From Flavobacterium limnosediminis JC2902 (GTDB taxonomy: Bacteria; Bacteroidota; Bacteroidia; Flavobacteriales; Flavobacteriaceae), in assembly GCF_000498535.1 (NCBI RefSeq), contig NZ_AVGG01000002.1:248001-312000 (forward strand): a stretch of DNA of 64,000 nucleotides, in the 5' to 3' direction. The stretch's first letter is position 1; the number at the start of each line of letters is the position of its first letter. Under the pieces are notes generated by a model that ran no database searches, was not told where the DNA came from, and saw only the letters and a list, made by a program, of their open reading frames with translations. The translations under genes were made by a program, and so were the position numbers. This document shows, piece by piece, positions 15,624 to 47,935 of the stretch.

Positions 15624-15680
15624 CCACGAATTCACAAATTTTCAAACTTATCCTTTCGATACCAATTCGTGAATTCGTGG
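15624..15680. repeat. Gene-free palindromic element between engB and gldC
   Basis: Two 17-bp arms, 15624-15640 and 15664-15680, match as inverted repeats at 16 of 17 positions; the first 12 bp (ccacgaattcac) are perfect. The loop is 23 bp. A T-rich stretch follows on the plus strand, so it may also act as a terminator for the converging genes. The word pattern, CACGAATTCACAAATT, closely resembles the inverted ends around the GxxExxY gene at 46681-47148. Confidence 0.7.
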
Positions 15681-45727: not shown

Positions 45728-45801
45728 AGCCGTATGAAGTTACGAAAACATGACAAAACTCATAACAAAATATCGAATAAAGATTTATCGTCAGAATATT
45801 G

Positions 45802-45809
45802 TATTTTTG
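45802..45809 (+). promoter_or_regulatory. Putative -7 box for map
   Basis: TATTTTTG followed by CAG lies 20 bp before the ATG at 45830, supporting that start over an in-frame ATG at 45734 that lies upstream of the box. Confidence 0.6.
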
Positions 45810-45829
45810 CAGTCCAACAATTTGAAGAT

Positions 45830-46648
45830 ATGATTATCGTTAAAACCCGTGAAGAAATTGAATTGATGCGCGAAAGTGCCTTAATCGTTTCTAAAACCCT
45901 GGGAATGATTGCTTCTGAAATCAAACCCGGCGTAAGCACTTTATATTTAGACAAATTAGCCGAAACGTTTATTCGTGACCACGGTGCAACCCCGGCTTTT
46001 TTAGGAATGTACGGATTTCCGAATTCGCTTTGCATGAGTCCGAACGCCCAGGTAGTTCACGGTATTCCGACCGATAAACCTTTGGAAAGCGGCGATATCA
46101 TCTCGGTAGATTGTGGTGCGTTGAAAAACGGATTTTACGGTGATCACGCCTATACTTTTGAAGTGGGCGAGGTAAATGAAGCCACCAAAAAACTATTGAA
46201 GGTTACGAAAGAGTCGCTTTATGTGGGTATCCGCGAACTGAAAGTGGGCAACCGTACGGAAGACGTTGGTAATGCGATTCAGAAATATTGTGAAAGTCAC
46301 GGTTATGGTGTGGTTCGGGAATTGGTCGGACACGGAATCGGACGTACGATGCACGAAGCTCCGGAAATGCCGAATTACGGTAAAAAAGGACGCGGAAAAC
46401 AATTGGTTGAAGGAATGGTTGTTGCCATTGAACCGATGATTAATCAGGGAACAAAAAACATCAGACAACATAAAGACGGTTGGACAATCACAACTGCCGA
46501 TAACAAACCATCGGCACATTTCGAACACGATGTAGCAATTATTGACGGAAAACCTGAATTGCTATCGACATTTGCGTATGTACACAAGGCTTTGGGAATT
46601 ACTTCTGATGAGGAAAATGAATTCAGAAAAGTACCGTTTGTAATTTAA
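45830..46648 (+). CDS. map: Type I methionine aminopeptidase
   Basis: Removes the initiator Met from nascent proteins using two metal ions. The 272 residues show the active-site His77 (VVHGIPTD) and metal ligands D94 (ISVDCGA) and D105 (YGDHAYTF), plus GHGIGRTMHEAPEM, MVVAIEPMI and HFEHDVAI for the remaining His and Glu ligands. The start at 45830 (MIIVKTREEIELM) fits the family and the promoter. Length is standard, slightly extended at the C terminus. Confidence 0.96.
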   Translation: MIIVKTREEIELMRESALIVSKTLGMIASEIKPGVSTLYLDKLAETFIRDHGATPAFLGMYGFPNSLCMSPNAQVVHGIPTDKPLESGDIISVDCGALKNGFYGDHAYTFEVGEVNEATKKLLKVTKESLYVGIRELKVGNRTEDVGNAIQKYCESHGYGVVRELVGHGIGRTMHEAPEMPNYGKKGRGKQLVEGMVVAIEPMINQGTKNIRQHKDGWTITTADNKPSAHFEHDVAIIDGKPELLSTFAYVHKALGITSDEENEFRKVPFVI

Positions 46649-46718
46649 GTTGTTCCGCTAAAGATGCTCGAGGAAAAATAAAACACAAATTTCACAAATT
46701 GTCACAGATTACTTTTTA

Positions 46719-47093
46719 ATGGAAAATTTTTATTTAAAAGAGGAAACTTATACGATTATTGGAATTTGCATGGAAGTTCATAAAATCCTCGGCAAAGGTC
46801 ATAGCGAGATAATTTATGGTGATGCTTTAGAATATGAATTCAGAAAAAATGGAATTCCTTTTGAAAGAGAGAAAAAGTTTAACGTCACCTATAAAGACAT
46901 AGTTTTACCCCATCATTATTTTTCGGATTTTGTGATTTTTGAAGAAATCATCTTAGAGATAAAAGCAATTCAACAACTTTCAAGTAGTGAGACAAAACAA
47001 ACACTCAACTATCTTGCTGCTTCAAAAAACAAAGTTGGATTACTTGTGAATTTTGGAGAAGACAGTTTAAAATACAAAAGAGTTGTCTTGTAA
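46719..47093 (+). CDS. GxxExxY protein
   Basis: 124-residue protein of the GxxExxY family, named for a motif seen here as GHSEIIY (in LGKGHSEIIYGDALEYEF). It has no signal peptide or membrane segment. Conserved acidic and lysine residues (DFVIFEEIILEIKAIQQLSS) recall PD-(D/E)xK nuclease-like folds, with E and ExK spaced appropriately, but this is my inference. Biological role is not known. The gene is the only ORF between two inverted repeats and lies downstream of map. Confidence 0.88.
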   Translation: MENFYLKEETYTIIGICMEVHKILGKGHSEIIYGDALEYEFRKNGIPFEREKKFNVTYKDIVLPHHYFSDFVIFEEIILEIKAIQQLSSSETKQTLNYLAASKNKVGLLVNFGEDSLKYKRVVL

Positions 47094-47109
47094 AATCTAA
47101 ATCAATAAG

Positions 47110-47128
47110 AACACAGTGCATCTGTGTT
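47110..47128. repeat. Short perfect dyad in the right end of the GxxExxY cassette
   Basis: aacacag (47110-47116) and ctgtgtt (47122-47128) are inverted around tgcat, overlapping the right-hand inverted repeat. Confidence 0.6.
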
Positions 47129-47164
47129 AATCTGTGAAACCTGTGTTTACCTTTTATTCATCCT

Positions 47165-47935
47165 ATGAAAAAACTCTTTAAATTCATCTTAAATACAATT
47201 CCGCGTCCAATATTAATCCGCTTGAGTATTGTTGTGCGTCCCGTTTTGGCTTTTTTACTCAAAGGAAACACCTTCACGGATCCCATTGACGGGAAAAGTT
47301 TCCGGATGTTTTTACCGTACGGATACGGATCACAACGCAACAATGTTTTGTCTCCAAGCACCTTATCCTTGGAAAGACACCGTTTGCTTTGGCTATATTT
47401 AAAAAACGAAACCGATTTTTTTACGGCTACCGAAAAGAAAAAAGTATTGCATTTTGCACCGGAGCAGGAATTTTACAAGCGTTTCAAGAAACAACAAAAC
47501 ATAGATTACACTACAACCGACTTGTTTTCACCCTTAGCGGATGTAAAAGCAGATATCTGTAATTTGCCGTTTGATGATAATTCGTATGATATTATTTTCT
47601 GCAACCACGTTTTGGAACACATTCCGGATGACACCAAAGCGATGCAGGAACTCTTCCGGGTTTTAAAACCGGGCGGTATTGGCATTTTCCAGATTCCGCA
47701 GGATTTATCCAGAGCAACAACTTTTTCGGATGATTCCATAACCGATCCAAAAGAACGGGCTAAAATATTCGGGCAGTACGATCACGTTCGTGTTTACGGA
47801 AGAGACTATTTCGACAAATTAAGAAGTATTGGCTTTAAAGTCACCGAAGAAGATTATACCAATAAAATAGCTCCCGAACTGGTAGAAAAATATTGTCTCG
47901 CGAAAGGCGAAATTATCCCGGTTTGTTACAAATAA
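47165..47935 (+). CDS. Class I SAM-dependent methyltransferase
   Basis: 256 residues. The methyltransferase core spans about 95-200: VLHFAPEQEFYKRFKK (motif I region, without a canonical GxGxG), TTTDLFS, ADICNLPFDDNSYDIIFCNH and VLEHIPDDTKAMQELFRVLKPGG. The N-terminal 60 residues are basic with a hydrophobic stretch (IRLSIVVRPVLAFLL). The substrate is unknown. It ends at a hairpin facing the M16 peptidase gene. Confidence 0.85.
   Translation: MKKLFKFILNTIPRPILIRLSIVVRPVLAFLLKGNTFTDPIDGKSFRMFLPYGYGSQRNNVLSPSTLSLERHRLLWLYLKNETDFFTATEKKKVLHFAPEQEFYKRFKKQQNIDYTTTDLFSPLADVKADICNLPFDDNSYDIIFCNHVLEHIPDDTKAMQELFRVLKPGGIGIFQIPQDLSRATTFSDDSITDPKERAKIFGQYDHVRVYGRDYFDKLRSIGFKVTEEDYTNKIAPELVEKYCLAKGEIIPVCYK

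Follow-up and report, generated by a model that had tools for sequence, protein, structure and literature searches.

According to the accessible text of one study, RAYTs are marked by a gene lying between two inverted REPs, by co-evolution of enzyme and REP, by tandem arrangements, and by a correlation between gene presence and REP abundance (PMC2817692). The GxxExxY loci described here resemble RAYTs, as far as that account goes, in that the gene is flanked by inverted repeats also scattered through the genome, its presence predicts repeat abundance, and flanks and enzyme co-evolve, with tandem BIME-like arrays; a correspondence of one enzyme to one cognate repeat holds for GxxExxY at the locus and only partly genome-wide. 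RAYT is, however, a HUH tyrosine transposase, whereas the GxxExxY protein is a predicted PD-(D/E)XK nuclease of different fold. REPs, in the accessible text on these elements, are short hairpins that bear a GTAG or CGTC tag (PMC3733652), whereas the GxxExxY repeats are made up of 7-bp words arrayed at helical spacing; no such tag was noticed by eye at the feet of the palindromes that we displayed. On this comparison the GxxExxY system is not a member of that class, and we regard it as REP/RAYT-like in its working and unrelated in descent.

Other known elements offer partial likenesses. The short, gene-less inverted repeats dispersed in a genome that also has an apparent autonomous copy recall MITEs and the terminal inverted repeats of IS elements, but the GxxExxY unit has no known transposase, its arms consist of tandem words, and its gene sits at a fixed site. 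Homing endonucleases of PD-(D/E)XK or Vsr-like fold exist, and the GxxExxY locus is similar to them in carrying a small nuclease gene inside its own apparent target; it differs in that the gene-less targets are dispersed repeats and in that the copy in the window, by which we mean the whole 64,000-nucleotide stretch of Flavobacterium limnosediminis JC2902 DNA that was analysed, lies between genes and not inside one. We found neither a description of a link between GxxExxY and palindromes nor the array words in the open-access papers searched, where the accessible text gives the name 'GxxExxY' a passing mention only; an account elsewhere is possible. We consider it fairly probable that GxxExxY genes drive a dispersed palindrome family in a REP/RAYT-like manner, through a Cas4/RecB-type nuclease unrelated to RAYT.

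Inverted arms and a predicted nuclease at the window locus

The original prediction held that the flanks of the window GxxExxY gene (46719..47093, + strand, 124 aa) match as an inverted repeat, and recomputation bore this out: positions 46681-46708 and the reverse complement of 47121-47148 are identical at 23 of 28 bases, and the GxxExxY site was the only one of 63,532 window positions with at least 20 matches at that spacing (runners-up, 18-19). When spacings of 300 to 700 were scanned across the window, the top value was again that of the GxxExxY arms. The inverted ends around the gene are real and beyond chance. A repeat finder seeded on exact 9-mers did not report the arm pair because the arms share no exact run of nine. 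The left arm (46681..46711, + strand) consists of three inward words, CACAAATT-CACAAATT-CACAGATT, with starts 9 and 10 bp apart, and thus extends to about 46711 rather than ending at 46708 as first drawn. The right arm (47121..47148, - strand) carries the left-arm words on the other strand, where it reads AAACACAGGTTTCACAGATTAACACAGA from 5' to 3' and contains the words CACAGGTT, CACAGATT, and CACAGA. The ends had been described as built of CACA(A/G)ATT words; the repetition of words stood, and that spelling proved to be one variant of a broader C-R-C-N-R-A-K word. Between the arms there is one ORF of at least 80 aa, and no known RNA family matched the site at gathering thresholds. A stretch at 46650..46673 (CCGCTAAAGATGCTCGAGG; compare ACGCTAAGATCCACAAAGA at the same place in locus L057), to which strand does not apply, is tentatively read by eye as a possible decayed left array of another GxxExxY type. 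The sole other inward inverted array that the scan rule picked out in the window is a gene-less palindrome of the same word family, likewise without strand, at 15624..15680 (CCACGAATTCACAAATT...AATTCGTGAATTCGTGG), which gave a z of -3.9 when folded as single-strand DNA.

The window protein matched the GxxExxY family TIGR04256, whose name carries no function, with an E of 7e-40 (136 bits against a curated cut-off of 35) and PF13366 (PDDEXK_3) with an E of 2.9e-35 (121.6 bits against a cut-off of 22); the profile search of the gene returned PDDEXK_3, Phage_endo_I below its cut-off, and no others. In an alignment of 86 relatives, thinned from 143 full-length proteins, residues G27, E30, D70, E80, K82, Q94, N111, and R121 were invariant (with E80-x-K82) and Y98 was conserved in 90% or more of the sequences, which we take to be the PD-(D/E)XK pattern with the Q-xxx-Y signature of Cas4/RecB nucleases. 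An AF2 model of the protein (pLDDT 94.3, pTM 0.87) returned alkaline exonuclease LHK-Exo (E 6e-4) and then SSO0001 (E 8e-4, TM 0.62) as the top Foldseek entries, with the homing endonuclease domain I-Bth0305I at rank 20 (E 0.056). VIA-align placed SSO0001 (4ic1), presumably a Cas4, first with a Z of 10.0 and an rmsd of 3.1 over 98 aligned residues; the next entry had a Z of 7.7. HUH and DDE transposases did not appear among the fold entries listed, which does not count against them. By residues and modelled fold, GxxExxY would thus be a PD-(D/E)XK nuclease of Cas4/RecB type, and nuclease activity is likely on the same prediction. The likeness to SSO0001 lies in this top VIA-align and second Foldseek placing and in the E...D...ExK...Q-xxx-Y residues, but SSO0001 has 202 residues compared to 124 in the window protein, and the two neighbours of the window gene are not cas genes. 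The window protein also has a single cysteine, whereas the accessible text on a Cas4 structure describes an iron-sulfur cluster held by four (PMC4176176). Sequence search for a solved homologue gave one match, taken as chance (E 0.45). A PHROGs search with the window protein gave one weak endonuclease match (E 0.0026), and a PADLOC search for defence genes gave no match, on which we set aside a reading of the protein as a defence gene.

The home site and carriage of the gene

The window gene lies between an M24 metallopeptidase gene (45734..46648, + strand; PF00557, E 6.3e-49), which we take to encode a methionine aminopeptidase, and a methyltransferase gene (47165..47935, + strand; PF08241, E 2e-16), and these neighbours form the left and right boundaries of the unit in relatives. 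We surveyed this home site in the best 30 of 61 genomes' methyltransferase loci, the window's own included. A GxxExxY gene with words on both sides stood between the neighbours in nine of the 30, one of them (L059) internally broken, whereas in 16 the neighbour genes were 0-68 nt apart with at most one word between them. One locus (L046) had words and no gene, one had a peptidase that was not adjacent, and three (L043, L045, L049) had about 800 nt between the neighbours without GxxExxY; by eye, these 800 nt hold another ORF resembling a membrane protein. Except in L046, arrays and gene are present or absent together at the home site. Two GxxExxY clades occupy this same intergenic site in different species.

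All 20 readable loci among 22 close orthologs had both neighbour genes in their flanks, as judged by sequence motifs. Because orthologs keep the same neighbours, the window copy is a site-faithful, vertically kept resident that has been lost or gained repeatedly, rather than a cassette that hops freely. The original prediction had offered a passively mobilised cassette as one reading of a gene inside inverted ends without a transposase. As the main reading, a passive single cassette is rejected, since orthologs keep the same site, in 20 of the 20 that could be read, and relatives are rare or missing in the plasmid and phage collections searched. Orthologous loci without the whole unit, which the prediction had proposed to look for, do occur, at 16 of the 30 home-site loci; the pattern that would have spoken against the prediction, a gene always present among unrelated flanks, was not what we saw, as the gene is absent in many relatives and its flanks are arrays where it is present. 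At the home site, genome G012 has the gene and arrays; in G039 and G047 the stop codon is followed by 28 nt without words. At empty home sites, flanks were about 82-90% identical and the intergenic bases were too diverged to name exact ends or target-site duplications. Genome G010 gave the best match to a neighbour protein (95%) and has no GxxExxY gene, but could not serve for aligning intergenic sequence; its other neighbour gene is, by eye, only about four-fifths identical as DNA.

With one query protein, relatives were detected in eight of 72,556 records of a plasmid collection and in none of 50,697 phage records, and one scan of viral contigs found no relative. A strict rule of 'never in viruses' is contradicted by an algal virus genome that, in the accessible text, lists a GxxExxY protein (PMC12085832). 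Among the eight plasmid genes, from named strains, clear arrays on both sides were present in two (Bernardetia and Bacteroides finegoldii). The Gemmatirosa gene, with its ends assumed, had a complete palindrome downstream and one inward and two outward words upstream; the Treponema saccharophilum gene had one word per side, the Sphingomonas gene a one-sided array, and the Fusobacteria record words in direct orientation, and no clear array was seen at the Persicobacter and Prevotella nigrescens genes.

Word arrays and dispersed palindromes across genomes

The 149 GxxExxY loci that we gathered came from genomes of the genus and of the phylum and from a single scan that covered bacterial and archaeal genomes, and we retained 141 of 150 gene records after dropping those with flanks under 100 nt, with N, or with identical proteins. 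The inverted-repeat score was the best local match between the 200 nt upstream and the reverse complement of the 200 nt downstream, with a threshold of 12; 107 mechanically called ORFs of at least 80 aa in the same loci, which are not curated genes, served as controls. Scores of at least 12 were found at 104 of 141 GxxExxY loci compared to 5 of 107 control ORFs (Mann-Whitney p 7e-31), leaving 37 of 141 GxxExxY loci below threshold, and 100 of 141 exceeded all 50 dinucleotide shuffles. The inverted ends foreseen at other GxxExxY loci thus recur in other genomes and phyla, and the equal frequency beside unrelated genes that would have spoken against them was not observed. Flanks of different loci also match somewhat: a locus's own flank pair scored above all ten cross-locus pairs at just 75 of the 141 loci.

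The words have the consensus C-R-C-N-R-A-K, occur inward at 2.72 and 3.03 per flank compared to 0.73 and 0.62 outward, and show start-to-start spacings that peak at 9-11 bp, about one helical turn; arms usually contain two to four words each. At least two inward words on both sides were present at 104 of 141 loci, with 37 falling short. The consensus was read by eye from the first loci and is not an independent test for those; among loci from later genome contigs, at least two inward words on both sides were found at 50 of 73. By label, loci with at least two words on both sides come from Bacteroidota, Planctomycetota, Chloroflexota, Nitrospinota, Alpha-, Beta-, and Zetaproteobacteria, and a Treponema MAG; most of these non-Bacteroidota loci are from metagenome bins, and single names may be wrong. 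Mariprofundus sp. EBB-1, labelled a pure culture, is among the loci with words on both sides. One locus labelled Rhizobium sp. Q54 MAG (L199) encodes a GxxExxY protein that falls inside a Flavobacterium clade on a very short branch, and its contig is probably misbinned.

The window's genome has four GxxExxY genes, all with inverted-repeat scores of at least 14. At the window gene the words are CACAAATT/CACAGATT, and two other genes have CACAAATT or CACGAATT; the fourth has TCTGCG, which is CGCAGA on the opposite strand, and a whole palindrome on its upstream side. In this genome, pairs of CACARATT words no more than 6 bp apart occurred 49 times compared to 0 for the reversed pattern, and 4 of the 49 were beside GxxExxY genes; gene-less word clusters outnumber gene-bearing ones. 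From 30 of the 49 word-pair matches we read 17 gene-less clusters, of which 12 were palindromic beyond 20 shuffles (three narrowly) and all 17 lay outside ORFs of at least 120 aa. These gene-less palindromes are roughly 60 bp long, and one example, folded as single-strand DNA, formed a near-perfect hairpin (z -10.2). From the gene-less clusters of its own genome, therefore, the GxxExxY unit looks like a dispersed palindrome with a gene in its loop.

Palindromes stand in tandem near many GxxExxY genes, and some copies carry pieces of the gene ends (3' ends in L070, L082, L087, and L213; 5' ends in L087, L250, and L227). At L246, L215, L171, L181, L182, and L193, tandem direct palindromic units of BIME-like character, with periods of about 45-120 bp, adjoin GxxExxY. 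Among three related species, one gene-less palindrome was nearly unchanged at the same place in all, and another was kept in two, with a palindrome of other words there in the third. At one intergenic site the arrays of G039 and G047 differ and G012 has none, which is no more than suggestive of a polymorphic gene-less palindrome. Among the relatives compared, we saw change and amplification and no clean new insertion or movement of a palindrome. Several word-pair matches in G246 and G363 are found 40-110 bases from the start of a contig, which suggests that assemblies break at palindromes and that draft genomes show too few of them. A different palindrome, TTGTCATTCCGACAAAGGAGGAATCTC..., was observed in G039 (L104:1003-1102; with L298, L299, and L300), in a place taken by a terminator-like hairpin in G012 and by about 3.3 kb of other DNA in G047; copies similar to TTGTCATTCCGACAAAGGAGGAATCTC also occur elsewhere in G012 and G047, and this palindrome may be a CGTC-type REP, a type said in the accessible text to lack a dedicated transposase (PMC3733652). 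Another short dispersed repeat of G039 (L296:1802-1858) had well over a dozen matching sites in G012.

Gene presence and palindrome abundance were compared, on complete per-genome counts, in 150 genus genomes, 121 with GxxExxY, and 296 phylum genomes, 152 with GxxExxY (149 above the curated cut-off). Before any correction, with counts that include the genes' own flanks and statistics that ignore genome kinship, CACARATT pairs averaged 14.5 in the 121 genus genomes with the gene compared to 0.69 in the 29 without (p 1e-9), and at least two matches were found in 88 of 121 compared to 3 of 29; in the phylum, 46 of the 152 gene-bearing genomes had at least three matches to a different word pair, CACAGAG..CACRGAG, as did 1 of the 144 that lack the gene (p 3e-14). 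Flank matches, measured at 38 genus and 30 phylum loci, amounted to 0.11 and 0.8 per gene, respectively. Subtracting these measured values, with kinship still ignored, left 14.1 compared to 0.69 pairs and 84 of 121 compared to 3 of 29 genomes in the genus (p 3e-9), and 35 of 152 compared to 1 of 144 in the phylum at three or more matches (p 2e-10). A harsh subtraction of two per gene, which is more than the measured mean, gave a weaker 8.6 compared to 0.69 in the genus (p 0.005) and 23 of 152 compared to 1 of 144 in the phylum (Fisher 1.5e-6, Mann-Whitney 0.001). Co-occurrence of GxxExxY and palindromes stands after flank correction. Genomes with words and no detected gene include G303 (7 matches), G043 (8), and G002 (5), and, for CGCAAAG, G134 (31) and G094 (13); these five may have lost the gene. 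Seven CACAGAG-type matches lie on one contig of G303 (G303:C17:16106-17792), a genome without detected GxxExxY.

Word letters followed the protein tree, which rests on 126 columns and leaves many forks open. For 130 loci with three or more words, the CAC/CGC letter, counted on 126 tips with four ties omitted, changed 12 times compared to 33.9 in shuffles (minimum 28 of 200), and the AG/AT word end changed 3 times compared to 9.75; within Flavobacterium alone, these values were 5 compared to 15.5 and 1 compared to 5.78, respectively. Linkage of word and protein at the locus could be plain co-inheritance. Genome-wide, CACARATT pairs averaged 19.1 in 74 genomes with the window's clade compared to 7.2 in 47 with other GxxExxY only (p 6e-5), but CGCAAAG pairs were also higher in window-clade genomes (27.4 compared to 15.2, p 0.009), and ten or more CACARATT pairs were present in 12 of the 47 genomes whose GxxExxY genes are all outside the window's clade. 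A simple genome-wide rule of one clade to one word is thus only partly met; word specificity is partial genome-wide and weaker in trans than at the locus.

We also compared the two arms of single loci, using 20 of 22 loci at 69% protein identity or more, the window included, after L308 and L325 were dropped for an in-frame stop. Words and spacers vary by species among these 20 orthologs, and the mean match between a locus's own arms was 21.07 compared to 16.82 for permuted arms; the maximum of 20,000 permutations was 19.90, so that none reached 21.07. A 26-locus version gave 21.0 for own and 14.1 for cross pairs, whereas sequence outside the arms gave no signal (own 7.9, permuted 8.1). Something keeps the two arms of one locus alike; conversion from other palindromes would have this effect, and so would selection for a paired site.

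Proposed mechanism and rival explanations

Of the two readings in the original prediction, the idea that the protein acts on the repeats is the better one, given the co-occurrence of gene and palindromes, the words that follow the protein tree, and the arms that co-vary. We infer binding, cleavage, and transposition by GxxExxY. The unit would be an inverted, inward array of C-R-C-N-R-A-K words, about 10 bp apart, with the nuclease gene in its loop, and the roughly 60-bp gene-less versions elsewhere in the genome would be able to fold into hairpins. The protein may bind the words as a duplex array, a cruciform, or a single-strand hairpin and may nick or cut at the words, and repair or copying from another palindrome would then spread and homogenise the palindromes. 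The gene would persist by travelling with its own target and converting it, and the window copy would be a long-term resident between the M24 peptidase gene and the methyltransferase gene.

It is unlikely that GxxExxY merely rides in the loop of REP-like palindromes that are moved by another enzyme, such as a RAYT or an IS transposase. The unit lacks a transposase, gene-less clusters are more numerous than gene-bearing ones, and palindromes of another kind exist in related genomes, all of which agree with such a passenger; yet one and the same nuclease family occupies the loop in several phyla, and neither the genome-wide prediction of palindromes by gene presence nor the co-variation of arms around the gene is expected of one. 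Somewhat less plausible is a homing-type element, in which GxxExxY would cut a gene-less palindrome and the gene, copied in by repair, would end up inside its own split target. A gene in the loop of a palindrome resembling the gene-less ones, a PD-(D/E)XK fold with the I-Bth0305I homing domain low in the Foldseek list, and two GxxExxY clades at one intergenic site in different species are consistent with homing, which by itself, however, leaves the spread of gene-less palindromes unexplained and accords poorly with the few gene copies (1-12 per positive genus genome) compared to the often tens of word pairs.

We regard as very improbable the further reading that the arrays are bidirectional terminators or operators common to GxxExxY and other genes, with no nuclease action. 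Such a regulatory role would suit the position of every gene-less cluster read outside long ORFs and the conservation of one palindrome in three species, but it does not account for the near absence of palindromes in genomes without the gene, for word letters that track the protein, or for the joint loss of gene and arrays. Returning to GxxExxY genes as drivers of the palindromes, we give about an even chance to a broader claim: that they form a second, independently evolved REP-like class, in which a Cas4/RecB-type PD-(D/E)XK nuclease replaces the HUH transposase and would generate, spread, and homogenise palindromes by cutting arrays of degenerate 7-bp words, so that the 'CACAGAG', 'CACAGATT', and 'CGCAAAG' repeats of Bacteroidota and other phyla would share one cause.

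The link to dispersed palindromes provides a first testable function for GxxExxY (TIGR04256), and makes GxxExxY a candidate cause of one class of intergenic repeats for which we found no account in the open-access papers searched. If the proposal is true, unrelated enzymes gave rise to REP-like systems on at least two occasions, and repeat homogenisation could be followed in natural genomes through the way both arms change together at a fixed locus.
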